This document shows positions 25,633 through 53,217 of a stretch of DNA of 64,000 nt, one piece after another. Location: positions 1-64,000 of the forward strand of contig JALHMI010000020.1 in the NCBI GenBank assembly GCA_022844125.1, written 5' to 3'. This stretch comes from Pirellulales bacterium (lineage in GTDB: Bacteria > Planctomycetota > Planctomycetia > Pirellulales > PALSA-1355). The first letter of the stretch is position 1; every line of letters begins with the position of its first letter. The notes under the pieces were generated by a model. The model made no database searches. It was not told where the DNA came from and was given only the letters and a program-made list of their open reading frames with translations. A program made the position numbers and the translations under genes.

Positions 25633-26160
25633 CGACGGAACTCCTAAACAGATACTTACAGGGGATGTCACATCTTCCGTGAGCCGCACGGCAAACTAGG
25701 GCCTCTGGCGCAGTATGTCGCGATTGATTCAGGCCAGGCCGTTACAGCTTTACGAGGATCCCTCAGCGGGATAGCCTCGCTGATGGTTATCGTCGACCCA
25801 AGTGACAGCACTTAGTTCGTCTTCGCATTTCTCCTAAACTTCCGGGGCAAAAACGTGCGAGCAGGCGGGATCTAGCGGATATGCCGCACCTGAGCATTGG
25901 GGCTGCCAAGCGGCCACAAACTACCATCATCAGAGGACTTGCGCTATTTGGCGTCGGCAGATTCGCCACGCGCGGCAAAACCCCAACCATGCCATCGAGA
26001 AGTCGGGACTGGTTCCAGCCGTTGGCAGAATTGAAATGCCCGTTGCGGCCTAGAGTTTCAGGACGTGACGGGGGTTCCACGTGCGCCACTGCCCACAGCG
26101 ACGATGCGCGCCCCCGGTTTCTGCTCATTAGCAGGCGCAAAAGAGATGGGGTAAGGGGCG
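25633..26160. other. Divergent intergenic region, no gene seen
   Basis: This 528-base region lies between the Cys-rich gene and the Hpt gene. Short frames cross it but have no ribosome sites or coherent protein content, and I recognise no repeat or hairpin. Confidence 0.55.
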
Positions 26161-33897: not shown

Positions 33898-34656
33898 CTA
33901 CGTGGTCAGCGGCAACTCGTCCGTTAGAAATCGCTGCCAGTGCCGCAGCGCAGCCGCCTTGTCGTCGCGCCGGTCCACCATCACCCCTAGCACACGGGCC
34001 CGCAGAATCACGCCTTTTTCCAAGCGGTCGACGAACAGTTCATGCCGCAGTTGCAGCCGGTAATGGGCCCCGTGTAGCCAGCCGTCCCAGCTTGAGCATT
34101 GCACATCGGCCGGGTGAATCATCTCGATGTAGCTGTATTGTCGGCCCGGCAGACGGAACACGTAGCAGTGCGGTGCGCCGGCAATACTGTCAGGATCGGC
34201 CTCGGCCGAAGGCGGAACCACGCTCGTGAAAGAGCCACTTTGGGAGTCCGTCATCCGCAGGGCTTCGCTGGCATGCAGGTGACTGGCAAACGCGAGTTTG
34301 GGGCAACTGTCGAGCAGCGCGGTCTGCACGGAGACCACGAGTTCGATCGCGGCAATGGCGCCGTCGGGCGGGTGTGTGCCGGCACGCCAGTAGACTTGCG
34401 TGCGCAACCCTTCGGCCGGACGGTTGGGATACGTGGCCACCAGGTCGCCGCCGCGCACGTAGTGCTCAGTCGCGGCAATCTCGGCAGGTCCGACGGCAAC
34501 GAGTTCCGGACCGAGGGGATGAAAATCGCTCAGGACCTGGCCATCGAGTCGAGCTTCACTTAGGCCGTTTCGCGGATCGTGCCAGTCGACGCTGAAGGCG
34601 CAGCGTTCGAGTTGCATGCGTGCGAGATGGCCTGCGACGTCCTGCCACACTTGCAT
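33898..34656 (-). CDS. Conserved-looking protein of unknown function
   Basis: The 252-residue protein lacks a signal peptide. It contains many beta strands (FSVDWHDPRNGLSEARLDGQVL, YSYIEMIHPADVQCSSWDG, RLQLRHELFVDRLEKGVILRARV) and resembles no family I can name. The frame is open to 34848, but ATG 34656 is the first reasonable start; the extension lies over the candidate RNA at 34709-34860. It may be controlled by that upstream terminator. Function unknown. Confidence 0.65.
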   Translation of the reverse strand: MQVWQDVAGHLARMQLERCAFSVDWHDPRNGLSEARLDGQVLSDFHPLGPELVAVGPAEIAATEHYVRGGDLVATYPNRPAEGLRTQVYWRAGTHPPDGAIAAIELVVSVQTALLDSCPKLAFASHLHASEALRMTDSQSGSFTSVVPPSAEADPDSIAGAPHCYVFRLPGRQYSYIEMIHPADVQCSSWDGWLHGAHYRLQLRHELFVDRLEKGVILRARVLGVMVDRRDDKAAALRHWQRFLTDELPLTT

Positions 34657-34708
34657 GAAAAGTCGACACGCTCGAGCGCGGTTACGAGTTCTGGTTGCGA
34701 AGGCAAAT

Positions 34709-34746
34709 AAAAAACCCCGCCGCTCGCGCGAGGCGAAACGGCGGGG
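34709..34746 (-). terminator. Intrinsic terminator upstream of an unrelated gene
   Basis: CCCCGCCG (34715-34722) pairs with CGGCGGGG (34739-34746), with an inner CTCG/CGAG hairpin. An A run at 34709-34714 supplies the U tract on minus-strand RNA. It lies 53 bases before the start of the gene at 34656, not after a coding gene, so it should end a small RNA or attenuate the downstream gene. Confidence 0.85.
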
Positions 34747-34860
34747 CCGGAACAGAGAAGAGGCCGTTGTGCTTGAAGCTGAGTATGAAGTTGGATAAGG
34801 CCGACCGCGTAAGCCGGGATCTTTGCTTCGAGCCGTGGATTCGATCATCCTCTCTGCTCG
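34709..34860 (-). ncRNA. Candidate structured small RNA or leader attenuator
   Basis: A roughly 150-base minus-strand transcript is bounded by a promoter (34867-34894) and the terminator at 34709-34746. It folds into a closed rod. The 5' segment AGCAGAGAGGA pairs with UCUUCUCUGUU (11 bp with two G.U pairs). An internal bubble of about 14 and 9 bases follows, then GCUCGAAGC against GCUUCAAGC with one mismatch, and an apical G/C-rich hairpin. That shape resembles 6S RNA, but the sequence alone cannot identify it. It could instead be a leader of the gene at 34656. Confidence 0.45.
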
Positions 34861-35052: not shown

Positions 35053-35841
35053 TTGCCTGATTTTCTCGAGGTTTGTGAACAAGCTGCCCGCGAGGGGGGC
35101 GCCGTCCTGCAGAGTTGGGTGGGGCGATTCAAAGCCCGGGAGAAAGGGCCCCGGGACTTGGTGACCGAGGCCGATCTGGCCTCTCAAGAGGCTGTCCGGG
35201 CCAGGTTGCTGGGGGCTTTTCCCGACCATGACTTTGTCAGCGAAGAGGGTGAGCAGGAGGGTCGCCTCGATGGTCGCTACTGCTGGGTCGTCGATCCGCT
35301 GGACGGCACGCTCAACTACGTGCATCAAATTCCGCATTACGCGGTTTCGATCGCCCTACTCGAAAACGGAAAGCCAATCGTCGGCGTCATTTATGACCCC
35401 GTCAGCGATGAGTGCTTCCGCACTCGCCGGGGTGAGGGAGCCTGGCTCAATTCCTCCCGCATCACGACCAGCGGTGTGGCCACGTTATCCGAGGCGGTGA
35501 TTGCCGCCAGCTTTGCCGCCAGGGTCCAGTTTCCCGCCCGGGAGATTGACCAATTCGTGGCCGCCGTGCAGCAGAGTCAGGGGGTACGACGGACCGGCTC
35601 CGCGGCCTTAAACCTGTGTTATGTCGCGTCAGGACGCTTTGATGCGTTCTGGGCGCTAAGCACGAAGGCCTGGGACGTCGCGGCGGGCGTGCTGCTGGTC
35701 GAGGAGGCTGGCGGGGCTGTCAGCGGTCCGACCGGGACGGCATTTTCGCTCGAGGAGCCCCATCCCGTGGCATGCGCCAGCCAGCCGCTGCTCGATGCCT
35801 TTTGCGCAATGTTGAATTCGGCCGCAGAACTGCAGCACTAG
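35053..35841 (+). CDS. Inositol-monophosphatase-family enzyme
   Basis: The 262-residue protein has the FIG/IMPase metal-binding motifs: LVTEADLASQE, VSEEG near residue 63, WVVDPLDGTLNYVHQIPHYAVSIAL and, near the C-terminus, KAWDVAAGVLLVEEAGG. It dephosphorylates inositol phosphate or related sugar phosphates (some members act on PAP or on fructose bisphosphate). The start is TTG 35053 with a GCAGGA site; no ATG is in frame. The substrate is not clear from the sequence. Confidence 0.9.
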   Translation: MPDFLEVCEQAAREGGAVLQSWVGRFKAREKGPRDLVTEADLASQEAVRARLLGAFPDHDFVSEEGEQEGRLDGRYCWVVDPLDGTLNYVHQIPHYAVSIALLENGKPIVGVIYDPVSDECFRTRRGEGAWLNSSRITTSGVATLSEAVIAASFAARVQFPAREIDQFVAAVQQSQGVRRTGSAALNLCYVASGRFDAFWALSTKAWDVAAGVLLVEEAGGAVSGPTGTAFSLEEPHPVACASQPLLDAFCAMLNSAAELQH

Positions 35842-36063
35842 GGGAGCCCCTAAGTGACCAGCTGTTAACGACTTGGTTGAGGTGCCACGAAACCGGGCCG
35901 CAACCGGGCTGCGACGCAGATTATCAAGCAACTCCAGAGGGCAATAGTTTTGGTCCCTCGGGCGAATCCAATTAGACTGGAGGTTGCATCCTCGCATCTC
36001 CCTTCTTGCGCAATCGGCCAAAGCGCATTCGCCGCGCGGTCGACGCTCCAGAGACTATTCGCC

Positions 36064-39000
36064 ATGCGTCACCCTCTCCGCCGACCATTGGATCTGTTGC
36101 TGGCGGTCTGGTTGTATGGCTGTTTGCTATTGGGACCAACTTCACTGGCCCAGGAGCTGGACAAACCAGCGCCGGCTGCACCGGCCGACTTGTCGGCCGC
36201 TGATCAAGACCATGCGCCCGCGCCGGCCATGGTTCCGGCGCCGCTACCGTTTGAAGTGATGCCGCAGATCTTTCATGTTCGCGATCGTGACGGCAAGCTG
36301 CAGGCGGTGCCCGGAATGAGCTACGAGGAGCTGATGCGACTGTGGAAGCAGCAGCATCAACTGGCGGTCGCCGAAGAGAAGCCGCCCTACACGCTCGAAA
36401 GTCTGGAACTGAGTGGGATCGCAGCCGGCACGAGCGCAGAGCTGATCGCGCGCTTCAAGATCATCGTGCACGACGAGGGCTGGGTCGGCATTCCGCTTAA
36501 GTTGGGGGAAGCCGTGCCGCGCGAAGTCGGCACTTACGAAGGGCCGGGCGAGCACGTCCTGGAGCGCGCGCCTAATGGCGAAGGGTTGATCGCCTGGATC
36601 CGCGGTAAATCCGACGAGAAGCATGAGCTCTCGCTGAAGCTGGTCGTGAACGTCGCACAGGTCGGTCCGCAATCGCGAATGAAGTTGACGGTCCCGCCAG
36701 CGGCCGTCTCCCAATTGCAACTTCAGGTTCCGCTTGCCCGGGCCGTGGCTCGCTCCAGCGAAGGCAGCACACTGGATTCCGTCCGACCGCTGGCAGGCGG
36801 AAAGACGGAGATCAAAGCTCTCGGTTTGACGGGCGAGTTCGAGCTCTCCTGGCATCCTGCTGAAACCAAGGTGGCGGGACTGCCCGCAATTCTGGAAGCC
36901 AGCAGCCAACAGCTGATCCGGATCAACGGGCGCAGCGCAAACACCTATGCGAAACTGACGGTCAGAAGCCTGGGCAGTGAGTTCGATCACTTTCAGGTGC
37001 GGCTGCCTCCCGGGGCGGACTACATCGGCACACCCGAGAACGGCGTGAGCCTGGTGGCGGTGGATGCATCGGCGCCGGGGGGAAAGCTGTACGACGTGCG
37101 GCTAGCCGAAAAAACCGCCGGTCCGGTCGAGGTGCCACTGGTAACCGAACGGGTGCACGACGCCGCGCAGGACGACAGTTCGTTGGAACTGGCGGGTTTC
37201 GAAGTGATTGGCGCCGTGCGGCAATGGGGCACGATTGCCGTGCAGGTCGAAGGCAACTGGCAGGTTGTCTGGGGAGAATCGAATCACGTGCGGAGCGTCG
37301 ACGATGTCGCGGCCGAGCGCGGCGACGAGCTAGCCGCCGGGTTCGAGTATTTCGTGCAGCCCTATTCGCTCGCCGCCCGAGTGATTCCGCAGAAAACACG
37401 GATCCGCGTCGAGCCTCAGTATACGCTGCTGGTGGGCAGCGACGACGTACGATTGGAAGCTCGGCTGAAGTACACCATTCGCGGAGCGAAAGTCCGCACG
37501 CTGACGCTCGACGCGGCGGGTTGGGAGTTTGACGCCATCGAGCCCGCCAATCTGGTGAACGTCGATGCGGCGCTGGCGGCGGCCGATCGCCAACTCACCA
37601 TCCCGCTCCTGGAAGCGACCAGCGGCGAGGTGGAACTCAAGCTCACCGCCCGGCGGCGGGTGGACTCGGCGCAGCAGGAACTTCGCATCGAACTTCCCCG
37701 ACCCCAGGGCGACACGTTGCCCGCGGACGTCGCGATCGTGAGCGATGATCCGATCGAGCTCTTGCCCCGACTTGATCAATGCGTCGGGCTGACACCGCAG
37801 GCGGGGCGAGCGGAACTACCGCTGCCGGTTCGTCAGCAGGAACCGCTGTTCTATCGCACCAGTGGTGAGAACTCGCTCTTCGTGGCTGACCGCAGAGTTC
37901 ACGCTCAGGCGATTGCCACGGCGATGAGCACACGACTTGAAGTTCGCGAAGATGAAACCAGAGTCGACCAGATTTTCGTATTTCAAGTTGCCTATCAGCC
38001 GGCCGAGCATCTGACCCTCATCGTGCCGCAGGGGCTGTCTCCGCAGCGCGTCTCCGTGGTACATGAAGGCGTACGCATCACACCGACGCCACTGCGCGAC
38101 GGGACGATGGCCGACGGGTCCGCGACGCCCGTGCGCATCAAATTGCCATCGCCAGTCATTGGCCGCTGTGAATTGCGAACCAGCTACGCGCGTTCGCACG
38201 CCAAGCCGCCGACGAAAGCGAGCGCCTTGGTGACGGTGCCGCTTGTCGTTCCGGGCGAAGGCCAACTTTCCGACAATCAGGTGCAGATTCTCGCCGCCGA
38301 GGGTCTGACCGCCAGCTATCCGCAAGGGCCCTGGAGCCGTGAAGGACGCGGGGGAGATTCCGAAAACAACCCGGGACTCATCCTGGCGGCTTCACGGGCA
38401 ATCGGTGAAATCACCCTCGCGATCAGTTCCGAACAGGAACAGGCGGAAGCAGCCACCACGATCGAGCGTGCACTGCTGGAGACCGATCTGACCTCGAACA
38501 TTCGCCTCGATCGGGCCATCTTTCGCATCGCCACGACGCGCCGTCGCATCGAGATCGTGTTGCCTGAACAGGCCGACCGGGGATCGCTTGCGCTGTCCGT
38601 CAACGGTGTGCTTGTGGCACCCGAGGGACAGCGGCAACGCACGATCACGGTTCCGCTGGATTCCGCCGCTGGCGAACACTTGATCGAGTTGCGCTACCGT
38701 TTTAGCGGTCGCGATCCGCAGGGATCGCAGCAGTTCGCCAGCCCTGAAATTCCAGCCGCTCGATGGGTGCAGCAGGTTTACTGGCAGGTCGTGTTGCCTC
38801 CCACCGAGCACCTGCTCTTCGGGCCTCAGGGCTATACCAGCGAGCAGCAATGGGTCTGGTCCAACGGCCTGTACTCTCGCCAGGCGACACTGGGGCCCGC
38901 GGACCTCCAGCGCTGGATCAGTGAGCAGAGTGCGCTGGCCGGCCCCGCAGCCTTGCCGCTGCGTGCGGGCGGCGAAGCAGGAAATCGTTACCTGTTCAGC

Positions 39001-39423
39001 ACCTCTGGTCGCATTTTTCCTCTGGAATTGGTTTCCATCAGCCGCTCGCGGCTGGTGCTGCTGGCGTCTCTACCATTGCTCGCTGTGGGATTAGGCCTGA
39101 TCTACATTCCCTGGATGCGACATCCGGCCGTGTTGTTGATCGTGGCGCTCCTTGTTGCCGGGATCGCATTTGTCGAGCCGCACCTTTCCATCCTGCTAGC
39201 ACAGGCGGCCGTTGTTGGTGTGTTGCTGGTCATCGTCGCCTGGCTGCTCGCTCGATTGTCGCCCCCGCCCCAGACCGCGACCTCAGCCCCTTCACGCGGC
39301 AGTTCGTACGCCGCTCTTGAGCGCAGTGTGACCGAGCTCTACCACCGCTCGCCATCCAAGAGCCATCCGCCCTCAACGGCCACGAACCCCCTGATTCCTG
39401 CCGGCCCGGAAGTAAATCCATGA
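36064..39423 (+). CDS. Giant envelope protein 1 (1119 aa)
   Basis: The 1119-residue protein has a signal peptide (LLLAVWLYGCLLLGPTSLAQ), about 960 residues of beta-rich extracytoplasmic sequence, a C-terminal cluster of about three transmembrane helices (residues about 995-1065, LVLLASLPLLAVGLGLIY...VGVLLVIVAWLLARL) and a short cytoplasmic tail. No named domain is evident. It overlaps the next giant gene by ATGA, and its layout resembles each half of that protein. It may form part of a large surface or wall complex. Start ATG 36064 is favoured because it opens the signal peptide; the frame is open to 35950. Confidence 0.85.
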   Translation: MRHPLRRPLDLLLAVWLYGCLLLGPTSLAQELDKPAPAAPADLSAADQDHAPAPAMVPAPLPFEVMPQIFHVRDRDGKLQAVPGMSYEELMRLWKQQHQLAVAEEKPPYTLESLELSGIAAGTSAELIARFKIIVHDEGWVGIPLKLGEAVPREVGTYEGPGEHVLERAPNGEGLIAWIRGKSDEKHELSLKLVVNVAQVGPQSRMKLTVPPAAVSQLQLQVPLARAVARSSEGSTLDSVRPLAGGKTEIKALGLTGEFELSWHPAETKVAGLPAILEASSQQLIRINGRSANTYAKLTVRSLGSEFDHFQVRLPPGADYIGTPENGVSLVAVDASAPGGKLYDVRLAEKTAGPVEVPLVTERVHDAAQDDSSLELAGFEVIGAVRQWGTIAVQVEGNWQVVWGESNHVRSVDDVAAERGDELAAGFEYFVQPYSLAARVIPQKTRIRVEPQYTLLVGSDDVRLEARLKYTIRGAKVRTLTLDAAGWEFDAIEPANLVNVDAALAAADRQLTIPLLEATSGEVELKLTARRRVDSAQQELRIELPRPQGDTLPADVAIVSDDPIELLPRLDQCVGLTPQAGRAELPLPVRQQEPLFYRTSGENSLFVADRRVHAQAIATAMSTRLEVREDETRVDQIFVFQVAYQPAEHLTLIVPQGLSPQRVSVVHEGVRITPTPLRDGTMADGSATPVRIKLPSPVIGRCELRTSYARSHAKPPTKASALVTVPLVVPGEGQLSDNQVQILAAEGLTASYPQGPWSREGRGGDSENNPGLILAASRAIGEITLAISSEQEQAEAATTIERALLETDLTSNIRLDRAIFRIATTRRRIEIVLPEQADRGSLALSVNGVLVAPEGQRQRTITVPLDSAAGEHLIELRYRFSGRDPQGSQQFASPEIPAARWVQQVYWQVVLPPTEHLLFGPQGYTSEQQWVWSNGLYSRQATLGPADLQRWISEQSALAGPAALPLRAGGEAGNRYLFSTSGRIFPLELVSISRSRLVLLASLPLLAVGLGLIYIPWMRHPAVLLIVALLVAGIAFVEPHLSILLAQAAVVGVLLVIVAWLLARLSPPPQTATSAPSRGSSYAALERSVTELYHRSPSKSHPPSTATNPLIPAGPEVNP

Positions 39424-42400
39424 GCCGGATCGGTGCAACTCTTGCGTTGTGTCTGCTCTTGCAGGGAGCGAGCCAGGCGATGGCCGAAGTGCCTGGTTCG
39501 GCCGCTGACTCGCCGGAGCCTCTGCCGACCTTTCACCGCCTGTTTCTGCCTGATAGTGAAATCGAACGTCGCGACTGGAAACATCGATACTTGCCGGTAG
39601 ACGCGGCCGAGTTCGAGCGCGATCTGAAGGTGGTGGCCGATCATCACCGGGGCGCGCCTTCCGCGGATAAGCCACGCCTGGTAAAGGCGACGTACTTTGC
39701 ACAACTGATCGGTGAAGACCTGTTGGTGGGCACCGCTCAACTCACCGTGGCCGGCGACCTGAAACTGCCGACGATGTTGCCCCTTGGGGTCTGCAGCCTC
39801 GCGATCGAATCGGCACATTGGCCCGGAGCGGACCAGCCGGCCACGCTCGCCTTGGACGCGTCGGGAAAACTACAGTTGCTGGTTGAGGACAAACGCCTCG
39901 ATTTGCGGTGGTCTCAACGGGGGCAGCGCACCGCGTCTGGCGCCGTGCAGTTCGAGTTGAAGTTGCCTCCCAGCCTGGTGGGGAACTTGGAACTGACGGT
40001 CCCGGTGGGAGCCGAGATCGTTGCCGAGGGGGGCATCGTGACGCGCCAGGTCGAGCCGTCGGGAGAGAATTCCCCAAGTGCGGCTCGTTGGGGCATCGAA
40101 CTTGGCGGCACGGGGGCGCTCCGTTTGCGCGTGGTTCCCAAGGAGTCCGCCGGCCAGCGACGCCCGCTCACGCTGCTCCGGCAGTCCACAACCTATGAGT
40201 TCTCCGCACGCGGCATCAACGTGGCCACGCAGTTGCGGCTCGATGTGCATGGAGAACCGCTGGAGCGGCTTAAAATCGACCTCGATCCGACCTTGCACTT
40301 GATCTCGGCAAAGACCGGCGATCTGCCCATTCCTTGGTCGAGCGCTACGGACGTCGACTCCGGCGAAACACACGTAATCTTGGAGTTTCAGGAGCCTCTT
40401 TCAGGTACTGGCCGCGTGATTCAATTGGCCAGCGTCTCGCCGCTCGTTACGGGCGAAAGTGCTCCCTTGCCACGGGTGCTTCCCCGTCAGGTGGCCTGGC
40501 AGGAAGGCACTGCCAATCTGCTGGTTCCGGCGGCGCTCGTGCTCGAGCGTCTCAAAACCAGCGGTTGTCGCCAATCGCGTGTCACGACGCTCCCGGCGCC
40601 CCTCACAGGTGAATCGATCGAGATTCAGTTCTATGAATCCGAAGGACGCATCGAGACACGCGTTGCCGAGCCCCAGCAGAGGTTAAGTCTGCGCTGCGCA
40701 CATCAGGTCGAGATCGCGCCAGACTCAATCAGCACATCGTCCGTGTTCGACCTGGGCAGCGATCACCGGTCCGCGAAAGTCCTGGAGTTGCGGCCGCGTG
40801 CGGGGTGGATCGTCGACTCGGTGCAAAGCGTGAAGGGAACCGAGAACCTGACGTGGGACATCGAAGAGAAAGACTCCAGAAGTATCCTGCGTATTCATCC
40901 AGCAGCGGCGCAGCGAATTATCGTCCGCGCGCATGCTCCCTTAGGTGACGAGCGACCGCTTCCGGCTGCCGCGGTGCGGGCGTTCGACCCGGATTCCTTC
41001 AACGTCGCTTCAGAGATCCTCAGTGTGCAAGGAACCGGCGGACTCGAAGTGCGTTGGCAGAGTGAGTTCTTGCATGGCCGTGCCCCGAATGCTCTAAGTG
41101 CTGAAGAATTGCAGCTATTCGTGCAGGCCCCCGCGCAAACCGTGGTGCTCGTGGACGATCGCGTGGACGACGCCCGTCTTTCGATTGAACAACAACGACC
41201 CGAGTTTACCGCCGATCTGCACGTTGACGTGGCGGTTCAAGGGCCAACCTTGACCGAGACGTTGACGATTCTCTGTACGCCGGCGGCGTCACGTGTCGAC
41301 CGCTTGCTGGTGCACCTCTCTGAGAAGCACGACGAGAACGTCAAATGGAGCCTGGCAGGCGGCAATTCGGGGGACTTTTCCGCGCGCCGGCTTTCCGCAG
41401 GGGAACAAACGAAATTGGGACTTCCCAATGGCGAAGTGTGGGAACTGCTGCTCAAGCTGACGCGACTCGGCACGTTCGAAGTCCGTGGGCAACGCCGAGT
41501 GCCTTTCACCGCGGAATCTCCCGTCAGCTTGGCCTGCGTACCTGGCGCCGCCAATCAGCATGGCACCGTCGCAATTCGGGCGCTCGGTGAAACAGGGCTA
41601 GCGATACAAAATCGCAGCCTGACGTCCGTTCCCGCGGAGGCACTCGATGACGAGAACTATCAGACGGCGCGAGCTGCCTTTCACTATCCACCGGCGGCGG
41701 ACGATTTTGCCTCTCAGCCTGCCCTGGTACTTGTGCCTGGCGCGCCACTGCAGGCCTCGACTGGCGCCTGGATCTGGTCTTTGAAACTGGTTTCGCGTTT
41801 TGATTCCGAAGCGCGGATGTCGCACCAGGCTGTGGCCGAAATTCAAACAGCCGGTCGTCGACACGTCGAACTCAAGTTGCCCCTTGAGGCTTCGTTGAAT
41901 GGCGTCTGGCTTGACGATCTGCCCGTCGCCCAAGTCGAATTCGGCAAGCTCAGTGCGCCGCTGAAGATCCAACTTCCGCCGGGCAAAAGCCGGGGGAAAT
42001 TGGCAATTCACTATTCGACCTCCGCCGAGTTGCCGGTGCTCGCAAGGAAGTTCGCACCCCCATTTCCGACTCTGGACGCACCGGTCGTGCACCGTTGCTG
42101 GCAGCTTTGGTTGCCGCCCGGGCACGTGGTCGGCGATGCAACGGGCTGGATGTCGCCAACGCAATTGGTACCGCTCACATGGTCCGAGCGGTTGTTCGGG
42201 ATTCTGGGCCGTAGTGCCGGCCAGAATCTCTTCAATCCGCTGGTTGCGTCCGACTGGCGCGATAACTTCGCGAGCGGCGCCGACGTCGGCCTGGCACGCG
42301 ATCGTGCTCTTCAGTTCCTCGCGACTGTCGGTGACTTACTGACTGAATACCGCGACGCTGAGGAACTGGCCTGGGGACAACTGCTGGCATCCGTCGGGGA

Positions 42401-45400
42401 ACGACAAGGGATGGCCGGTGCTCAGATCCTCGTTGATTCAGAGGCTCTTGCGGCTGCGGGCATCGGTCCGCTAACCAGGATGCCCGTCCTGCATGACGAC
42501 ACCGAGACCGATCGGGCAAGTTTGCTGCTCAAAAATGCCGGCCTGGTCATCCTTGTCACGCCAGAGCAGGCATTGCTTACCAGCTCTGCGACGGCGGCCG
42601 GTTTTGATCCGCGACGCTTCACAACTCTCGGTACGATGCCGGCCGCGGTTGCACGCGGCGCCCTCAGCGGTCAACTGCGCAGCATTTCGGGCCAAGAGGG
42701 GACGGTCTTATCGGTCGCTTCATGGCTGGCGAACTCGGATCCGACGCTGGTCGGGGGCGAGGGACCGCTCTTGAGCTCGGCTCACCCTGTCGGATGGCGA
42801 CGCTACGACTTGCAATGTCACGAGAATCGTCTGGGCGATGTTCGAATCGTCCACTCTTCGCGAATGCAGTCGCTCGCCTGGGCGATTTTTCTGGGGGCCG
42901 CTGGCCTGTGCCTGTGGCGACCGGTGCTGCCCGGCAGCCTCCTCATCATCCTAGCCAGCCTCCTGGTCGCCGTCGCGCTGGTTGTTCCAGCCAGTTTCAC
43001 GCCACTGGCTGCCGCTTCGCTACTCGGGGTGTTGATCGGCCTTCTCGCCCGGATGACCGCAATCTCGCATCCTGGCCAACCGGATCCGAGTGACGCAGCA
43101 TCTCGAGGTTCGCAGAGCAAGTACGTTCAGCCAGTCGTGAGCGCCCTGATCCTGGCTGCGATTGTTAACGGCGCGGCCGCGCTCGACGCTGCCGAACCGA
43201 ACGGTGCGCCCAGCTCGACACCCGAAGCAGAGCCGCTCTACACCGTGCTGTTTCCCATCGACGAAGAGCGTCAACCGACAGGCTCCAAGGTGTTCGTTCC
43301 GGAACCTCTCTACGAAAAACTGCTGAAGGAGGCGGCCGCCGCGAGCGGTCGCCCACAAGGCTGGCTGATCTCACGCGCCGAGTACGAGGGGAGTGTTTCA
43401 CGAGATGGCGCGTCCGCGGGAAATGCGATCACGGCCTTCAAGGCGCGATTCGATATCAACGTGTTCCAATCCAACGCGCCAGTGCGACTACCATTCGCCC
43501 ACGATGGCTGGCAGCAGGCCGTGGGTTCGGCCCGACTCGACGGTAAATCGCTCACCCTAAATTGGCAGGATGAAGATGGCGTGCTCGTGGGACCACTCTC
43601 TGTCGGACGCCATGTGCTCGAAGTCGACCTGCGGCCGACTTTAGTCGGCGATACACGTTCGACGGGCGTAGATCTGCCTATTCCTCGTGTCGCCCAGGCG
43701 ATTCTGCGGCTAAGCGGCGCTGTGGATCTCGAAAACATCAAAATCATCTCCGCCCGGGGACGTGTGACGCTGGATGCCCAGCGCGATTCACTGGTCGCGC
43801 AGCTGGGAGCAGCCGACCGGTTGGCGATCCGCTGGCCCACGGCGCAGTCCAACTCGAACCCGGCTGCGGTCGCGAATCTTCAAGTCGATGAACTCGTTTG
43901 GGTCCGCGTGCGGCCCGGGACCACGGTACTGGACGCCCGTCTGAAGTTTCAGATCAATTCGGGCGAATTGCGCACGGTGCGACTTGCCACGGATCCGAGG
44001 TTGAGGTTGCTGACTTCCCCGGTGAACGGCTCATTGCTGGCTGCCGTCCGTACGTTTCCGGGCAGTCCTCAAATCATCGAGTTGGATCTGATACAACCCG
44101 CTCGCGATTCGGTCACGCTCGATGTCTCGTTCCTCGTCGCCGACGCGTCGGGGGTGGGCAATCTGCGATTGCCGCAGTTGGAGTCGATCGATGCCAAGCC
44201 TTTACGGCGTTGGTTGGGAGTTTCGGTTGACCCCGCTTTGCAATATCGCATACAAGCGGGTGAGGACTCTCCCAGCGTCGATATCGCCAAGTTTCTCGAA
44301 AGTTGGGGAATCGGCGATGCAAAGCCTCTTGCCGCGTTCGCCATCTCACGCGGTGAACCGATCTGGTTCTTGGCAACCCAGCCGGCGGAACCCAAAGTTT
44401 CCGTGCAGCAGAAGACCGTCCTCAGCGTGGGCCGACGTTTCGCTCAAGTTCGCATTGAGTCCTCGCTCGACATAACCGCCGGAGTCCTGGCGCAGCTCAC
44501 GATGGCGTCTCATCCTGACTTCCAACCGGATCGAATCTCGATGCTTGATCAAGACGTCGAACGCGTCGCGCGGTGGTCGGTGAGCGACGAAGGAGAACTC
44601 AATATTTTTCTGACCACTCCGATCGCAGGGCGACAACAATTGGTCGTCACCGGCCGCTGGCCGTTGCCGGCAAGCGCCGGCTTCGAAGCGCCCCGCTGGA
44701 GCCTGCAATCGGCAACGGTCAACCGAGGTCAATGGGAGTTCTATCGCCAGAATGAAGTCCTATTGACGATCAGCCCACCGGCTGAAGCGCGTCCGCCTGA
44801 ACTTCCCTCGGAGCCTCTCCGTAGTGGCTTGGGCTCGCTGGCTGCCGTGTTTCAAGCAGACACGGGCGATTTAGCCTTTGGCTTGCAAGTGGCGGAGAAT
44901 GATCCGCGTGTGAACGGAGCGACCGTCACGTCCGTGCGTCGCGAGGGCGATCGTTTCCTGGCGAACATCGACTATCAGGTCGAAGTCGCGGAGGGGATTC
45001 TTGATTCGCTACAGTTCGAGATCCCCGCCCAACTCGTCGGACCCTTTCGAACCGAACCGGCTGCAATAGTCACGTTAGGTACCGCGGCCGCAACTCAGCG
45101 GCGAGTTCTGACTCTGACTCCAACCACGCCACTGACCGGCAAACACGCATTTCGGATCCAAGGCCGGATTGCGCCCTCGCCAGGTGATCGACTAAGAGTG
45201 CCGGACGTGCAACCGCTGGCGGTCGAGTCGCTAGATCGCTTCGTGCTGCTGCCCAAACAGCTCGATTCTCAGCCCGTCTCTTGGGAGACGTCGCGCTTGA
45301 CCGCGGCCAAGTTACCGGCGGAACTGTTGCCCCGCGGCTGGAATCCGGAGGCCGTTTCCAGCTACAAGGTACACGATGACGGCTTTCACGCCGTGCTCAA

Positions 45401-46436
45401 AAGCGTGGATCGCGCTGACGCCGCTGCCGTCGTGCAACTCGCCGACATTCACCTGGCCTGGTCGCCAACGGGCGACTGGCAGGCCGCAGCGACTTATGAC
45501 CTTCAGCCGGGGGGCGCCACGGAATGTGAGCTTCAATTGCCGCCCGGCTGTGAATTGATCCATGCGACCGTGGAGCACTTGCCAGCCTCGCTCGTGGAGC
45601 TTGGTCAAGGCAAGTTCCGACTCACACTCGGCCCGCAGAATCTGCCGCAGCGGGTCGAGGTACTCTACACCACGCGGCCCGAGTACTCTGCCCAACAAAC
45701 GGTTCTGACCGCGCCTCGCTTGGGTAGTGGAGAGCCGCTGCAAACGCTCTGGACGATCTACCACTTGCCGGCCGATCGCGTGGAACCGCTCGAACAGCGC
45801 ATAATCGTATCCGCCTCGGATCAACAACTCGTCCGACTCACAAGCGCTTCACGCCTCGTCGATCTATCGGCCGATGTGCTGGGCGAGCACCTGCCGGAAG
45901 AGATTTCCCGTTGGTATGGAAACTGGCGGCAGCGCTATTGGAAGGACCGCCTCACTCTCCGCCGCTCACTGATCGCTGCCGGGCGGGATCCGACGAACTC
46001 TGAAGAGGCCGCTGAAGCACGCAGCCTGGACCAGAAGATGATCGCCCTGGACGATCGATTGGGGGCCAATAACTCCGCCGCTCAATCGGCTTCGACGCAC
46101 GATTTCGTGCAGGCGTTTGTTGAAACGGCCGGCGCCGGTCTGGCTCGAAGGCATTACTCGCTCAAGGCGACGGACGGTGCGCCGGTGGTGCGCTACCAGA
46201 GCTATGCACGAGGGTCACAGTGGCGCTGGATGTCCGCAACCGGTTTGATGATTTTCGGATGCGTTGTCGGCTGGCGTTTCCGAGGGCGCGAGCTGCCGCA
46301 GTTTCCGCCGGTCGTGCTTGCCACGTGCGTGGCGGCGTTCTGGTGGCTCTTTCTGGGGACCAGCATGTGGGGACTCTTGGCCGTCGTTTTAATTCTGCTC
46401 ACTTGGCTCTGGAAACGTAATCCTGCCGATGCGTGA
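39420..46436 (+). CDS. Giant envelope protein 2 (2338 aa)
   Basis: The 2338-residue protein starts at ATG 39420, inside the stop of the preceding gene. It has a signal peptide (GATLALCLLLQGASQAMA). A first beta-rich region is followed by transmembrane helices near residues 1150-1213. A second signal-like hydrophobic segment (SALILAAIVNGAAA, about 1240) leads into a second beta-rich region, and transmembrane helices lie near 2265-2335. It looks like two giant-protein-1-like units fused in one frame. No domain I can name is present. This is one of the longest ORFs here, with no frameshift visible. Confidence 0.85.
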   Translation: MSRIGATLALCLLLQGASQAMAEVPGSAADSPEPLPTFHRLFLPDSEIERRDWKHRYLPVDAAEFERDLKVVADHHRGAPSADKPRLVKATYFAQLIGEDLLVGTAQLTVAGDLKLPTMLPLGVCSLAIESAHWPGADQPATLALDASGKLQLLVEDKRLDLRWSQRGQRTASGAVQFELKLPPSLVGNLELTVPVGAEIVAEGGIVTRQVEPSGENSPSAARWGIELGGTGALRLRVVPKESAGQRRPLTLLRQSTTYEFSARGINVATQLRLDVHGEPLERLKIDLDPTLHLISAKTGDLPIPWSSATDVDSGETHVILEFQEPLSGTGRVIQLASVSPLVTGESAPLPRVLPRQVAWQEGTANLLVPAALVLERLKTSGCRQSRVTTLPAPLTGESIEIQFYESEGRIETRVAEPQQRLSLRCAHQVEIAPDSISTSSVFDLGSDHRSAKVLELRPRAGWIVDSVQSVKGTENLTWDIEEKDSRSILRIHPAAAQRIIVRAHAPLGDERPLPAAAVRAFDPDSFNVASEILSVQGTGGLEVRWQSEFLHGRAPNALSAEELQLFVQAPAQTVVLVDDRVDDARLSIEQQRPEFTADLHVDVAVQGPTLTETLTILCTPAASRVDRLLVHLSEKHDENVKWSLAGGNSGDFSARRLSAGEQTKLGLPNGEVWELLLKLTRLGTFEVRGQRRVPFTAESPVSLACVPGAANQHGTVAIRALGETGLAIQNRSLTSVPAEALDDENYQTARAAFHYPPAADDFASQPALVLVPGAPLQASTGAWIWSLKLVSRFDSEARMSHQAVAEIQTAGRRHVELKLPLEASLNGVWLDDLPVAQVEFGKLSAPLKIQLPPGKSRGKLAIHYSTSAELPVLARKFAPPFPTLDAPVVHRCWQLWLPPGHVVGDATGWMSPTQLVPLTWSERLFGILGRSAGQNLFNPLVASDWRDNFASGADVGLARDRALQFLATVGDLLTEYRDAEELAWGQLLASVGERQGMAGAQILVDSEALAAAGIGPLTRMPVLHDDTETDRASLLLKNAGLVILVTPEQALLTSSATAAGFDPRRFTTLGTMPAAVARGALSGQLRSISGQEGTVLSVASWLANSDPTLVGGEGPLLSSAHPVGWRRYDLQCHENRLGDVRIVHSSRMQSLAWAIFLGAAGLCLWRPVLPGSLLIILASLLVAVALVVPASFTPLAAASLLGVLIGLLARMTAISHPGQPDPSDAASRGSQSKYVQPVVSALILAAIVNGAAALDAAEPNGAPSSTPEAEPLYTVLFPIDEERQPTGSKVFVPEPLYEKLLKEAAAASGRPQGWLISRAEYEGSVSRDGASAGNAITAFKARFDINVFQSNAPVRLPFAHDGWQQAVGSARLDGKSLTLNWQDEDGVLVGPLSVGRHVLEVDLRPTLVGDTRSTGVDLPIPRVAQAILRLSGAVDLENIKIISARGRVTLDAQRDSLVAQLGAADRLAIRWPTAQSNSNPAAVANLQVDELVWVRVRPGTTVLDARLKFQINSGELRTVRLATDPRLRLLTSPVNGSLLAAVRTFPGSPQIIELDLIQPARDSVTLDVSFLVADASGVGNLRLPQLESIDAKPLRRWLGVSVDPALQYRIQAGEDSPSVDIAKFLESWGIGDAKPLAAFAISRGEPIWFLATQPAEPKVSVQQKTVLSVGRRFAQVRIESSLDITAGVLAQLTMASHPDFQPDRISMLDQDVERVARWSVSDEGELNIFLTTPIAGRQQLVVTGRWPLPASAGFEAPRWSLQSATVNRGQWEFYRQNEVLLTISPPAEARPPELPSEPLRSGLGSLAAVFQADTGDLAFGLQVAENDPRVNGATVTSVRREGDRFLANIDYQVEVAEGILDSLQFEIPAQLVGPFRTEPAAIVTLGTAAATQRRVLTLTPTTPLTGKHAFRIQGRIAPSPGDRLRVPDVQPLAVESLDRFVLLPKQLDSQPVSWETSRLTAAKLPAELLPRGWNPEAVSSYKVHDDGFHAVLKSVDRADAAAVVQLADIHLAWSPTGDWQAAATYDLQPGGATECELQLPPGCELIHATVEHLPASLVELGQGKFRLTLGPQNLPQRVEVLYTTRPEYSAQQTVLTAPRLGSGEPLQTLWTIYHLPADRVEPLEQRIIVSASDQQLVRLTSASRLVDLSADVLGEHLPEEISRWYGNWRQRYWKDRLTLRRSLIAAGRDPTNSEEAAEARSLDQKMIALDDRLGANNSAAQSASTHDFVQAFVETAGAGLARRHYSLKATDGAPVVRYQSYARGSQWRWMSATGLMIFGCVVGWRFRGRELPQFPPVVLATCVAAFWWLFLGTSMWGLLAVVLILLTWLWKRNPADA

Positions 46437-46903: not shown

Positions 46904-48007
46904 TTAGAAGCCGGCGCCTTGCTGGCCGAAGCCGAGCGGGCTGCGGTTGATGGTTTGGACGGCCTGGGTGCCGAGCAGGGTCACGCCGAAGATGCGTTCC
47001 ATCGGGGCGATGAAGCGGTTGAGCATCGAGTCGAGCGCGATCAGCGGATCCTGAGCGATGAAGATCCGGTCGCCCGGCAGGACCTGGTAGTTGCTGGCCG
47101 TGGCGCCCCCGGCGGTGATCTCTTTCCAGTCGACCGGCAGGATCACGTCGCAGCCGGCGCCCCCCTCGACGGGCCGGGCGATCCAGATCCGCTTGCTCGA
47201 GACCCGCGTCAGGCCGTTGACCTGCGAGAGCGCGTCGAGCACGGTTTCGTTGCCGGTGATCGGGAACCGGGCCAGGGTGTCGCCCAGTCCGGCGCCTTCG
47301 GTCACAACGTAATACACCTTGCTGTTGTAGGCGAACACGCTCAGCGAGACCTGCGGATTGTCCAGGTACTCGGACAGGTGCTGGTTGATCGCCGCGGTGG
47401 CTTCTTCGACCGTCATGCCGGCCACGTACACCGAGCCATAACTGCCCAGGTTCACCGTGCCGTCGGGTCCGACCAGGTGCTCGCCGGTGATCGGCTGCAT
47501 GCCGGCCGACATCACCAGTTGGACCGAGACCTGCGGGGCCTTGAGCACCTGGCGGAGCGACTCCTCGATCGCTTCCTGGGCTTCTTCTTCGGTCAGGCCG
47601 CTGATCTTGACCCGCCCGGCGTCCCCGTAGACGGGGCCCAGATCGATCTTGCCTGCCGGGCTGACGACGTACTGGTCGCCGGCCGGTCCGCCGCCGGTAG
47701 GCGCCGTGGGGAAGCCGCCCACAAGCTGGATACTGACGATGTCCGAGCCCTGGATGTGATAAGGGGGCTTGGGCACCACGCGAATGGCTTCAATGAACAG
47801 GATGTCCGGCGGCTCGACCGTGTAGGGCGGGAGCGTGGTCTTGTCCTTCTCGGTCGGGACGGCCAGGCCCGTGTGGTCGGGCGCTTGTCCGCCGACCAGG
47901 CGGGGCTGGGGCCGGGTGACCAGCGAATAGCAGCCGCTGCTGGTCGAAACCAGGCAGAGCACCACCAAAAGCGCGGTCCGTCGCAGGTGAGACGTCGAAG
48001 CGACCAT
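46904..48007 (-). CDS. Outer-membrane polysaccharide export lipoprotein (Wza-like)
   Basis: The 367-residue protein has a lipoprotein signal (TALLVVLCLVSTSSGC), a Poly_export domain (YVVSPAGKIDLGPVYGDAGRVKISGLTEEEAQEAI, then HLVGPDGTVNLGSYGSVYVAGMTVEEA) and a soluble-ligand-binding beta-grasp segment (VYYVVTEGAGLGDTLARFPITGNETVLDAL, NYQVLPGDRIFIAQDP). It forms the periplasmic/outer-membrane channel for exopolysaccharide. Start ATG 48005-48007 begins the signal. It is divergent from the exosortase gene. Confidence 0.88.
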   Translation of the reverse strand: MVASTSHLRRTALLVVLCLVSTSSGCYSLVTRPQPRLVGGQAPDHTGLAVPTEKDKTTLPPYTVEPPDILFIEAIRVVPKPPYHIQGSDIVSIQLVGGFPTAPTGGGPAGDQYVVSPAGKIDLGPVYGDAGRVKISGLTEEEAQEAIEESLRQVLKAPQVSVQLVMSAGMQPITGEHLVGPDGTVNLGSYGSVYVAGMTVEEATAAINQHLSEYLDNPQVSLSVFAYNSKVYYVVTEGAGLGDTLARFPITGNETVLDALSQVNGLTRVSSKRIWIARPVEGGAGCDVILPVDWKEITAGGATASNYQVLPGDRIFIAQDPLIALDSMLNRFIAPMERIFGVTLLGTQAVQTINRSPLGFGQQGAGF

Positions 48008-48769
48008 GTGTCCCGTGTCACCGATTGGGGCCCTGGGCGGAAGCACTGCTGGCAACAGGCGCACGTACCGCCCGCACCGTCCTCCCGACCGTTACAGCCC
48101 TACTAATCGGCAAACTCCCCCCAACTCTTTGCTTCGATCGCAGGCCGGTAGAAAAAAGACTAATAACTTTGGTCCGCGGGACGTCTTAAATGATGCAATC
48201 CTCGCAGAGCTCCGCAGCCGGCAAGAGAGCGGAGGCGATGCTTCAGCCACAATCGTTAAATCACTAAGCACAGAGGAGATAGGAAGTTTTCAAAAGACAG
48301 TAAAGCATTTGACAACCCTAGCCGGGACACTTATCGTGAAATTCTGAGCCCCTGGCCCAGCGACTTGACTGGTGGTCCTGGCGGCGGGGAATGAAATCAG
48401 GCGGTTCAAGCGACTTATCTAAGGCGACCGTTGCCAAGCACGGCAGTGGGCAGGCAGCCCCGAGGTTCGCCACAATTCAGCCGTTGTGCCCGTTCGGGGT
48501 TGAACAACACACCGGCCCGATCAGGAGAGTTTTCGCCCCTCGACCGTTTTGCCCCTCGACGTAGTCAACCAAGCCAGTCCTTCGGCGTCGTCAGCGTTCG
48601 CTGGGCGCCGCGGTGCAAGCGAGGAGTGCAGGCTCAAACCCAGCGGCAGGGTCGCCGGCGCGTCCGGCGTTTTGCGCGTGGTTCGTCCGGCACCGGCAAC
48701 CGTACAGACTTTAAGTAGCCCGCAGCAAAAAGATCAGCACCTTTTGATTCAATCGGGAGACGTTTTCAG
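48008..48769. other. Long divergent intergenic region of the exopolysaccharide locus
   Basis: This 762-base region between the Wza-like gene and the exosortase contains a promoter-like sequence at 48309-48337 and two imperfect copies of GTTTTCGCCCCTCGAC near 48530-48560. No gene is supported; the 113-codon frame at 48006-48347 has no ribosome site and unlikely composition. Confidence 0.6.
48309..48337 (+). promoter_or_regulatory. Candidate sigma-70 promoter for the exosortase operon
   Basis: TTGACA (48309-48314), a 17-base spacer and TATCGT (48332-48337) fit a sigma-70 promoter. The implied transcript would have a leader of about 425 bases before the exosortase ATG. Confidence 0.4.
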
Positions 48770-49684
48770 ATGGCCGAAGCGGTAGCAACTCGCAAGAACG
48801 TGGCCGAGACGCTCAAAGGCAATAACGATCAAGTTGTACCCTGGGCAATGCTGGTCGGCTTGATGGGTGTCTTGCTCTATGTGTTCTGGAATGCGCTCGA
48901 CAGCCGAGGCGCCATGAAATACTGGGACAACCCCAAGTACTCGCACGGTTGGCTGGTGCCCGTGTTCACCGTCATCCTGCTGTGGATGCGGTACGAGCCG
49001 TTCAAGCCCGTCAAAGCCTGGGAACGCTGGGCCGGTTTCGGGCTGCTGGCCGCGGGAATCGCGATTCGGATGGTCGCCACGTATCTGACGATTCCCACCA
49101 TCGAGATGATGTCGTTCGTGCCCAGTGCGGTCGGCGTGTTCCTGATGGTTGGCGGGGTGCACATGCTCCGCTGGGCAGGACCTGCCGTGGCGTTCCTGAT
49201 CTTCATGTTTCCGCTCCCCAGCTTCCTCGACTCGGGACTGCTGGCGCCGATGCAAAAGATCGCCACCCGGGCCAGCACCTACGTGCTGCAAACCATGGGC
49301 ATCGCAAGCTACGCGGAAGGTAACGTCATCTATATCGGCGAAATGCAGTTGGGCGTGGTCGAGGCCTGCAGCGGTTTGCGGATGCTGACGATCTTCATGG
49401 CCTTGTCCTTTGCGATCGTGCTCGTAACGGATCGCCCCCTTTGGGAGCGTATCGTGATCGTGCTCTCGTCAATCCCAATCGCACTAGTTTCAAACATCGT
49501 TCGCATCGTGGTGACCGCGCTGCTCTACATCGCCGTCGGCGCAGAATGGGTCGACCGCGTATTCCACGATCTCGACGGCTGGCTGATGATGCCCTTCGCC
49601 CTGGGCCTGCTGTACGTCGAGTTCCAGGTCCTCTCGCACCTGATCATCGAGGAAGATCAAACCGGGCCGCTGCAGGTGACTTGA
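48770..49684 (+). CDS. Exosortase (exosortase/archaeosortase family)
   Basis: The 304-residue protein is a multi-pass membrane protease-transpeptidase of the exosortase type. The catalytic triad is visible: Cys200 in VEACSGLRMLT, Arg245 in ALVSNIVRIVV and His266 in VFHDLDGWLMMP. Exosortases cut PEP-CTERM-like sorting signals, and their loci usually include exopolysaccharide genes. This one is followed by a Wzz/BY-kinase gene and an EpsI gene and is divergent from a Wza-like gene. A GGGAGA site precedes ATG 48770. No PEP-CTERM target is seen in the window. Confidence 0.93.
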   Translation: MAEAVATRKNVAETLKGNNDQVVPWAMLVGLMGVLLYVFWNALDSRGAMKYWDNPKYSHGWLVPVFTVILLWMRYEPFKPVKAWERWAGFGLLAAGIAIRMVATYLTIPTIEMMSFVPSAVGVFLMVGGVHMLRWAGPAVAFLIFMFPLPSFLDSGLLAPMQKIATRASTYVLQTMGIASYAEGNVIYIGEMQLGVVEACSGLRMLTIFMALSFAIVLVTDRPLWERIVIVLSSIPIALVSNIVRIVVTALLYIAVGAEWVDRVFHDLDGWLMMPFALGLLYVEFQVLSHLIIEEDQTGPLQVT

Positions 49685-49932
49685 GAGTGAGGCTTCGAGG
49701 CGCGTTGCAGTCTGGCCACATGGACGGCAGCAAGAGGTTGATAAAACGCAACATCTCGGCCTGTTAACCAGGCCGGAACATCGCAGAATTGCCCGCATCT
49801 GCGAGGGAAACAGAGTCTGACGGAACGACCGGTCCGCCGCTTGCAAGGTGAACCCGGGACCATTGACCGCCGGATCGCAGGGCGCCGGCGAACATCCTGG
49901 CAACTACGGAATCGAAGGAAGGCACCACACGC

Positions 49933-52287: not shown

Positions 52288-52312
52288 TTCGTTGAATCCC
52301 CACCGGCACAGT

Positions 52313-52358
52313 CCTAGAATAACGGCCCAATCCTAAAATAACGAACCAGCCCTAGAAT
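52313..52358 (+). repeat. Three direct repeats at 19-bp period
   Basis: CCTAGAAT occurs at 52313-52320 and 52351-52358, and CCTAAAAT at 52332-52339, each exactly 19 bases after the last. They lie in the gap between the Wzz/BY-kinase gene and the EpsI gene, about 70-110 bases upstream of the latter. The regular spacing on one helix face pattern suggests a protein-binding array or promoter element. Confidence 0.7.
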
Positions 52359-52425
52359 AGTGCGTCCGCCGACGAGCGGCTCGCATCCACCAACTTCGCA
52401 TCCGCAACTTGCACCAGGTGCATCC

Positions 52426-53217
52426 ATGGAAAAGTCGAACTTTCTGAAGCCTGCCACCCTGCTGCCGATCGCCGCGGCGGTGCTCCTGATGGGCGTCTCC
52501 TGCTACTACCAGGGCATGTGGTCCGAGCGTTGGGGAACCAGCCCCGAAATGATGATCTATCCCCGGCAAATCCACGAAGTGCCGCTGACAATTGGCGAGT
52601 GGGAAGGCCGCGACATTGGCGAGAGCGATGACCGGACCAAAGAGATCTCGGGTTCGCGCGGAGAGTTCAATCGCGTCTACAAGAATGCGGCCGGTGAGGA
52701 AGTGAACGTGATGCTGATGTGCGCTCACTTTCGCGACATCTTCTCGCACACACCCGAGATCTGCTATCCGGCCGCCGGCTTCGAGATCCTCAACCCGCCC
52801 GAACAAGTCGTGATCGACGATTCCGAGTTCTTCACCACGACGTTCCGCAAGTCCGACAACGTGAGCGGCACGCGTGACGAGCGCGGCTACTGGAGCTGGT
52901 CGGCCGACGGCAAGTGGTACGCACCCGAAGACGAACGCGGCCGGTTTGCCGGCGAGCGAGCCCTGTACAAGCTCTATGTCTTCACCACGGTGCCCACGCG
53001 CGAAGGCGCCCGCAGCGACAAGGACATCAGCAGCGACTTCATTCGGGCGTTCATGCCGGCTGTGCAAACGGCTCTGCGGCCAGGCTTTGAACGGGTCGAG
53101 CGAATCCGCAAGGGGGAGGAAGTGGCCGAACTAGAGCCGGCGCCGGCTGCTCCTGCGACTTCCGCACCAGCAGCGACCCCCGCCGCCGGGAGCGAAGCAG
53201 CCAAACCGGCAGCCTAA
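52426..53217 (+). CDS. epsI: EpsI-type exosortase-associated protein
   Basis: The 263-residue protein has one N-terminal membrane helix (PATLLPIAAAVLLMGVSCYYQG) and the EpsI (DUF3485) domain: IGEWEGRDIGES and CAHFRDIFSHTPEICYPAAGFEIL with HTPEICYP as the signature. In other loci EpsI domains are found next to or fused to exosortases. It probably helps in surface-protein or polysaccharide processing. The C-terminus is Ala/Pro-rich. Start ATG 52426 has a GGTG nearby. Confidence 0.88.
   Translation: MEKSNFLKPATLLPIAAAVLLMGVSCYYQGMWSERWGTSPEMMIYPRQIHEVPLTIGEWEGRDIGESDDRTKEISGSRGEFNRVYKNAAGEEVNVMLMCAHFRDIFSHTPEICYPAAGFEILNPPEQVVIDDSEFFTTTFRKSDNVSGTRDERGYWSWSADGKWYAPEDERGRFAGERALYKLYVFTTVPTREGARSDKDISSDFIRAFMPAVQTALRPGFERVERIRKGEEVAELEPAPAAPATSAPAATPAAGSEAAKPAA

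Follow-up and report, generated by a model that had tools for sequence, protein, structure and literature searches.

Ribophorin I/Ost1, a subunit of the eukaryotic oligosaccharyltransferase (OST), is made of sandwich domains in tandem and a membrane helix, and ribophorin I is thought to keep substrates near a membrane enzyme. The sandwich has the fold of the saddle-like N-terminal domain of M1 aminopeptidases such as LTA4H, ERAP1 and aminopeptidase N (APN). With regard to prokaryotes, the passages of a 2016 paper that deal with the non-catalytic OST subunits (PMC4973528) state that BLASTp brought up no bacterial or archaeal sequence resembling them, Ost1 included, and that the handful of sequences obtained by profile searches had unrelated functions and included no promising prokaryotic candidate. 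Here we describe a pair of giant genes in a 64,000-nucleotide stretch of DNA from a Pirellulales bacterium (contig JALHMI010000020.1; the whole stretch is hereafter called the window). Their products, the U proteins, consist of three homologous units, U1, U2 and U3, each formed by five tandem beta-sandwich modules of about 170 amino acids (aa) that belong to one family, 15 in all, and models suggest that the module has the M1/Ost1 fold. Neither the family, nor its 3 x 5 layout, nor the link to sigma and VWA genes described below has a name in Pfam, NCBIfam, PADLOC or the PDB sequences, and no title or abstract opening among the papers listed by searches of an open-access library points to the U family. 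As a system it is apparently undescribed, while being built from a known fold block.

Three homologous units, each of five tandem modules

Both genes lie on the + strand, as do all features given below unless a strand is indicated. Gene 1 (36064..39423) encodes U1, a protein whose 1119 aa are counted from an ATG start at 36064; taking the TTG at 35950 as start gives the longest frame. It comprises a signal-like segment (residues 11-29 by hydropathy), a short N-terminal segment, five beta modules, three predicted membrane helices and a C-terminal tail that is Ser/Thr-rich by eye. Gene 2 (39420..46436), whose start overlaps the stop of gene 1 in an ATGA at 39420-39423, encodes 2338 aa, in which U2 (residues 1-1225) and U3 (1226-2338) are fused in a single frame. 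Hydropathy predicts a membrane cluster in U1 (residues 995-1069, 39046..39270) and another in U2 (residues 1152-1216, 42873..43067), an internal signal-like or membrane segment at the U2-U3 junction (residues 1235-1258, 43122..43193) and one or more membrane segments in U3 (residues 2294-2331, 46299..46412). The N-terminus of gene 2 stays below the hydropathy threshold used and is hydrophobic by eye. An initial annotation of the window had already recognized the two ATGA-coupled genes and, within the second, two successive blocks; frames and overlap are indeed as it described them, and the membrane cluster, the second signal-like segment and the final membrane segment mark out the blocks.

The homology of the units is clear from profile-profile comparison. 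When profiles built from 30, 22 and 22 sequences for U1, U2 and U3, respectively, were compared with hhalign, the scores were 245 for U1 against U2 (E-value 4e-26), 256 for U1 against U3 (1e-27) and 298 for U2 against U3 (1e-31), and the alignments were colinear across 798-829 columns. None of nine reversed-profile controls scored above 44.4, which excludes generic beta-richness as the cause of the likeness. The initial annotation had suspected a duplicated and fused family and had proposed aligning each half of gene 2 with the 1119-aa protein; both halves are homologous to U1 in this comparison. Single-sequence BLAST among the units is suggestive at most, the best pairs having E-values of 2e-5 to 4e-3 with composition adjustment switched off. 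Unit hidden Markov models (HMMs) cross-match the other units in 20 distant loci, all from other orders or classes except L109, which is from Pirellulales.

When 39 units, taken from 13 loci, are placed in a tree, U1, U2 and U3 each occupy one side of a branch, with support values of 80, 61 and 94; only two changes of unit are needed, the minimum possible, and none of 200 shuffles was that low. A tree of 66 units from 22 loci, made with a fast alignment, speaks against such a clean separation, for it leaves the units unseparated and needs 15 changes (shuffle mean 31.8, with none of 200 shuffles as low). The 39-unit tree had been made with a slower alignment, from 13 of the same 22 loci, hand-chosen for spread; for both trees, gene 2 was divided at 51.5% of its length, which in the window corresponds to residue 1225. 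Because the slower alignment gave two changes, we read the failure of the larger tree as misalignment. The separation of the three units in the 39-unit tree suggests that the triplication most likely predates the phylum diversity sampled here.

Each unit contains a deeper repeat. In a model of U1, the secondary structure repeats with starts near residues 109, 277, 445, 617 and 802. Self-comparison of profiles made from Pirellulales sequences only reveals a period of about 170 residues, strongest in U3 (426-601 against 598-770, probability (P) 96.8%, E-value 2e-10) and weaker in U1 (P up to 83%). No internal repeat was detected in U2 by this comparison of profiles from order relatives only, a result that counts against a five-module array in that unit. 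Fifteen module profiles were then made from 73, 39 and 34 phylum-wide rows, keeping rows that were in one stretch and nearly full; a looser row set gave the same picture. All 15 pairs of modules in the same position match one another (median P 98.8, minimum 96.6), and P exceeds 50% in 62, and 90% in 37, of the 90 pairs in different positions, while the 105 reversed controls stay at or below 14.2%. Modules 2-4 are the clearest, and modules 1 and 5 are tied unevenly to the others, some pairs falling below 5%. These comparisons show the 15 modules to be of one family, and the simplest reading is that of an old five-module array, tripled afterwards. The threefold architecture put forward in the initial annotation was thus right as to the three units and missed the five modules inside each of them.

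In U1, module 1 has approximate limits (residues 105-272, 36376..36879) and is followed by modules 2 (272-440, 36877..37383), 3 (440-612, 37381..37899), 4 (612-795, 37897..38448) and 5 (795-935, 38446..38868). All five were placed with the U1 model and the module profiles, modules 2 and 3 also with the self-comparison and module 4 with a fold match to LTA4H. The modules of U2 were placed with the module profiles: 1 (residues 80-247, 39657..40160), 2 (247-415, 40158..40664), 3 (415-592, 40662..41195), 4 (592-780, 41193..41759) and 5 (780-920, 41757..42179), modules 2 and 3 having in addition a match to an M1_N profile. Between module 5 and the membrane cluster, U2 has a region (residues 926-1140, 42195..42839) of about 200 residues without counterpart in U1; in an alignment of 16 members, gene 2 is most conserved in the stretch at residue 924, immediately ahead of this region. 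U3 modules 1 (residues 1318-1482, 43371..43865) and 5 (2002-2140, 45423..45839) were placed with the module profiles, module 2 (1482-1653, 43863..44378) with these and the self-comparison, and module 3 (1653-1825, 44376..44894) with both and a model; module 4 (1825-2002, 44892..45425) was modelled in tandem with module 3, and the pair was aligned to ribophorin I/Ost1. As for the N-terminal segment, a motif pattern matched only 5 of 66 units; when the units are aligned, many of them, not all, turn out to have a short stretch in common.

Both genes are common in the order Pirellulales. At an E-value of 0.001, gene 1 was matched in 132 and gene 2 in 117 of 146 genomes, and many of the gene 2 matches listed are single open frames of 2,100-2,700 aa. 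Across the phylum, gene 1 used as a single-protein query had matches in 27 of the 199 genomes sampled, and a distant relative of it (from L116) in 115 of 392; these counts are lower bounds, each query having missed genomes caught by the other. One copy of the gene pair was found in the genome from which the window comes (6.44 Mb, 27 contigs), and the viral contigs that were scanned contained no relative of the U proteins.

The gene row was surveyed at 83 loci: 23 of a Pirellulales set (window included), 14 from the rest of the class, 3 more from the order and 43 from outside the class. In all 79 loci with more than one U gene, these genes share one strand. The longest frames of genes 1 and 2 overlap as in the window in 14 of the 23 Pirellulales loci, the others having longer nominal starts or short gaps. 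U1 followed by a fused U2-U3 is the layout of most of the other loci that hold enough DNA. The question, raised by the initial annotation, of whether some planctomycetes have three separate genes is answered by L159 (genome G206), where the three separate U genes code for proteins of 1128, 1237 and 1138 aa, all of which by eye begin with a signal-like segment. The layouts of L118 and L184 also differ from U1 + U2-U3. A further candidate for a three-gene locus, L117, was dropped, the split being made by an in-frame stop in gene 2 near the U2 membrane cluster (L117:15777-15838) that could reflect a nonsense mutation, recoding or faulty assembly. In family f21, all six genomes from which two places were taken carry two U1 + U2-U3 pairs (L101-L108, L110-L113), although the stretch ends within some of the second genes; an inositol monophosphatase gene stands beside one pair in 5 of the 6 genomes, and two subtypes may coexist there.

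The fold of the modules

Neither protein reaches the cut-off of any Pfam or NCBIfam family, which bears out the initial annotation's failure to name a domain. Weak matches among the aligned relatives were taken as chance or membrane-helix likeness: DUF5693 in 7 of 29 gene-1 alignment members (best E-value 0.0044), TgpA_N in one of the 29 (4.7e-5), seven further Pfam families in one gene-1 member each, two weak Pfam matches in the 16 gene-2 alignment members and, from NCBIfam, CsgH in one of the 29 gene-1 members (0.003). A few other weak matches were scattered and were read in the same way. A profile search of the PDB sequences gave 11 chains at E-values of 0.96 or worse, mostly fucosidases, and further PDB searches gave none. 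PADLOC found nothing, and the U proteins match no sigma, anti-sigma or M1 family.

Predicted structures point to a known fold. The tandem of U3 modules 3 and 4 was modelled well (predicted local distance difference test (pLDDT) 86.4, predicted template modelling score (pTM) 0.77, 11 alignment rows). Its best PDB match in Foldseek is ribophorin I/Ost1 (E-value 2e-10, query TM-score 0.32), and VIA-align superposes the pair on Ost1 over 309 residues with a Z-score of 13.0 and a root-mean-square deviation (rmsd) of 18.8. Taken by itself, U3 module 3 aligns with the N-terminal domain of ERAP1 over 158 residues (Z 12.6, rmsd 3.3). The same two relatives emerge from the low-confidence model of U1, in which module 4 (residues 612-789) aligns with the N-terminal domain of LTA4H over 169 residues (Z 11.9, rmsd 4.5) and residues 275-799 with the tandem sandwiches of Ost1 (Z 12.3, rmsd 17.4). 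In both models the tandem pair reaches a Z-score of 12-13 against Ost1, yet with an rmsd of 17-19; the arrangement differs or is mis-modelled, and from the value of 18.8 for the U3 pair it would follow that the angle between the modules is not that of Ost1. Foldseek matches to integrin alpha, mu-homology and COPI structures were set aside (TM-scores 0.07-0.27, rmsd about 11-39). Because the TM-scores of Ost1 are low too (0.30-0.33 of the query), weight was put on its Z-score and on the M1 matches of single modules.

There is also a link at the level of sequence. Against a profile of M1 N-terminal domains from planctomycetes (13 domains with limits set by rule of thumb, two of the 15 loci read having been left out), U2 module 3 reached a P of 93.3% (E-value 2.6e-7) and U2 module 2 one of 79.6%; the other 13 modules remained below 30%, and the reversed controls at or below 0.3%. 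The single-module fold matches come from predicted models of 2 of the 15 modules, and the model of whole U1 is a weak point of this reading: its pLDDT of 48.8 and pTM of 0.28, from four alignment rows, are too low to give the shape of the arm. With these bounds, the modules have the fold of the M1 aminopeptidase N-terminal domain, which occurs twice in ribophorin I/Ost1; the case is best for U3 modules 3-4.

Their known fold notwithstanding, the U proteins are neither M1 enzymes nor ribophorins by the following tests. In a pattern search of 32 U proteins from 16 loci, the zinc-binding HExxH was present in one and GxMEN (G[AG]MEN), which precedes it in M1 enzymes, in none. Neither gene product reaches the Pfam cut-off of Peptidase_M1_N (PF17900), a family that matches in 16 of 57 genomes, never at a U locus, and not in the genome of the window. 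Pfam Ribophorin_I was over its cut-off in none of 97 genomes, and its four weak matches all lie outside U loci.

Gene rows around the U genes

In distant planctomycetes, the U genes can form part of a longer row. A VWA/YfbK gene stands directly before U1 in 11 of the 43 loci from outside the class, a figure that is no frequency, most of the 43 being best matches to a protein from such a row. In 9 of these 11 loci an extracytoplasmic function (ECF) sigma factor gene precedes the VWA gene; at L155 and L157, the remaining two, the contig stops at this point. The order is sigma, VWA, U1, U2(-U3), and every step of it overlaps in L116 and L151. The three sigma proteins that were scanned all match Sigma70 regions 2 and 4. 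The three VWA proteins scanned all have vWF_A, VWA and YfbK_C domains, and two of them begin with zf-HC2; by eye, the zinc finger is followed by a membrane helix. The sigma and VWA genes of the remaining loci were called with HMMs built from these three rows. One VWA protein (L120:11200-16890), of 1897 aa, contains low-complexity sequence that forms a very long linker from the N-terminal part to the VWA part.

At least 1.1 kb of DNA before the first U gene is present in 35 of the 43 outside-class loci, and the row was found in 3 of the 7 outside-class loci picked with the window's own gene. The bias in the choice of the 43 loci weighs against a general connection between the U genes and sigma circuits, as do two further observations: a VWA gene before U1 occurs in none of the 40 other loci, from the order and class, and the single YfbK_C match in the genome of the window sits on another contig.

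Closer to the window, the conserved upstream neighbour is a gene of the inositol monophosphatase family (35053..35841), found in this position in 18 of the 23 loci of the Pirellulales set and in 5 of the 14 that represent the rest of the class; the remaining 46 (3 more of the order and 43 from outside the class) do not have it there. A divergent gene without Pfam match (33898..34848, - strand) has relatives in 15 of the 82 other loci and is a possible partner of the gene pair. Directly downstream of the pair, one gene recurs in 12 of 43 loci and is not present in the window (L067:15153-15833, L074:14809-15435 and ten more); the L074 copy, the sole one scanned, is a GNAT acetyltransferase. Elsewhere in the window, a 183-aa frame of repeated Cys-Cys motifs (25138-25689, - strand) resembles a cysteine-rich secreted repeat protein.

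Possible functions and known counterparts

Our best guess, which we offer tentatively, is that the U proteins are a non-catalytic, membrane-anchored periplasmic scaffold or sensor made of three paralogous subunits. U1 and the single U2-U3 chain would share the cytoplasmic membrane, from which about 15 modules would project to the outside, and would form one three-armed, non-catalytic periplasmic complex. This complex may bind a putative envelope ligand, be it protein, glycan or wall, and serve as scaffold and sensor. In species of the sigma/VWA type, it probably either governs a sigma circuit that responds to the envelope or is produced by such a circuit when needed; the gene row suggests that in those species the complex would speak to an anti-sigma protein, and the VWA domain is the likely contact between the two. 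A point on the other side is that the cytoplasmic-membrane location is derived from hydropathy and from nothing else.

A purely structural role is the strongest competitor, although we consider it rather unlikely. The 15-module array would be a load-bearing or adhesive part of the envelope, associated with pits, fibres or a wide periplasm, and would do no signalling, the sigma and VWA genes merely adjusting its amount. Planctomycetes do bear surface structures such as pits and fibres, none of them tied to U genes here. The proteins are huge, repetitive, membrane-anchored and devoid of catalytic motifs, and they are kept in most genomes of the order and in many across the phylum, all of which would suit such a part. 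However, no adhesin, sortase or outer-membrane family was matched in either protein, and the conserved helix clusters favour the cytoplasmic membrane.

By analogy with ribophorin I, the U proteins might instead help to assemble exported or glycosylated proteins or to control their quality. The tandem module pair does align best with Ost1, but the arrangement of the pair departs from that of Ost1 in both models, Ribophorin_I is over its cut-off in none of the 97 genomes and has no match at a U locus, and no glycosyltransferase was noticed among the recurrent neighbours scanned. We regard such a function as distinctly unlikely. Quite improbable, too, is the view that they are degenerate M1 aminopeptidases in which the N-terminal domain was multiplied and the catalytic one lost. 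The fold match and the likeness in sequence between U2 modules 2 and 3 and the M1_N domains of planctomycetes agree with it; the near absence of HExxH, the absence of GxMEN and the lack of any M1 family match do not, and while it may explain the origin of the modules it gives them no function.

The initial annotation had proposed a surface-structure role on account of the adjoining exopolysaccharide/exosortase genes. These are a Poly_export gene, an exosortase gene, a chain-length/kinase-like gene and a DUF3485 (EpsI-like) gene at 46904-53217, the exosortase gene lying 2.3-3.3 kb downstream of gene 2. The proximity is not reproduced at other loci. Downstream DNA extends for 3.3 kb or more in 27 other loci, among them 21 of 22 of the Pirellulales set, and none of these 27 has an exosortase relative; a Poly_export relative is present in one of the 82 other loci (L065) and a relative of the kinase-like gene in one of 82, while the EpsI position is covered by DNA in two loci only. 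That the U genes belong to this machinery is therefore very improbable. An artefact, either a frame error or a likeness common to all beta-rich proteins, has practically no chance of being the explanation: the similarity among single unit sequences is weak, but a frame error joining unrelated genes is excluded by the recurrence of gene 2 as one long frame in many genomes and by the profile homology of the units, and both the reversed controls and the 39-unit tree speak against chance likeness.

The scaffold or sensor that we favour can be extended into a wider picture, which as a whole we judge unlikely. It would be an ancient planctomycete machine, in which three paralogues of five aminopeptidase-N-like sandwiches each make one 15-module periplasmic complex that senses or builds the unusual envelope, with a VWA anti-sigma/ECF sigma circuit through which it reports, and which is at the same time a bacterial counterpart of the tandem-sandwich design of Ost1. 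Whatever their function, this one family takes up about 10 kb of coding sequence in most of the genomes sampled in the order, and in many across a phylum noted for its unusual envelope. Seen as triplicated arrays of a module of known fold, with a sigma row in some relatives, these anonymous giant proteins become testable subunits.

Three described systems come closest. ECF sigma circuits with a VWA/YfbK (zf-HC2) partner can share a gene row with the family, U genes following sigma and VWA genes in 9 of the 43 outside-class loci; the U proteins differ from the parts of such circuits in matching no sigma or anti-sigma family, and the link is absent from the 40 order and class loci. The M1 aminopeptidases LTA4H, ERAP1 and APN resemble the U proteins in the fold of the module, with a profile link for U2 modules 2 and 3; unlike these enzymes, the U proteins do without the pair of catalytic motifs and possess three tandem arrays of five modules and predicted membrane anchors. 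Ribophorin I/Ost1 of the eukaryotic oligosaccharyltransferase has two such sandwiches instead of five, in a relative orientation that the models do not reproduce, and its Pfam family, Ribophorin_I, has no match in the U proteins, but its two sandwiches in tandem align to a U pair together. This suggests that the M1/Ost1 domain can serve alone as a long repeat, which bears on the origin of the Ost1 design.

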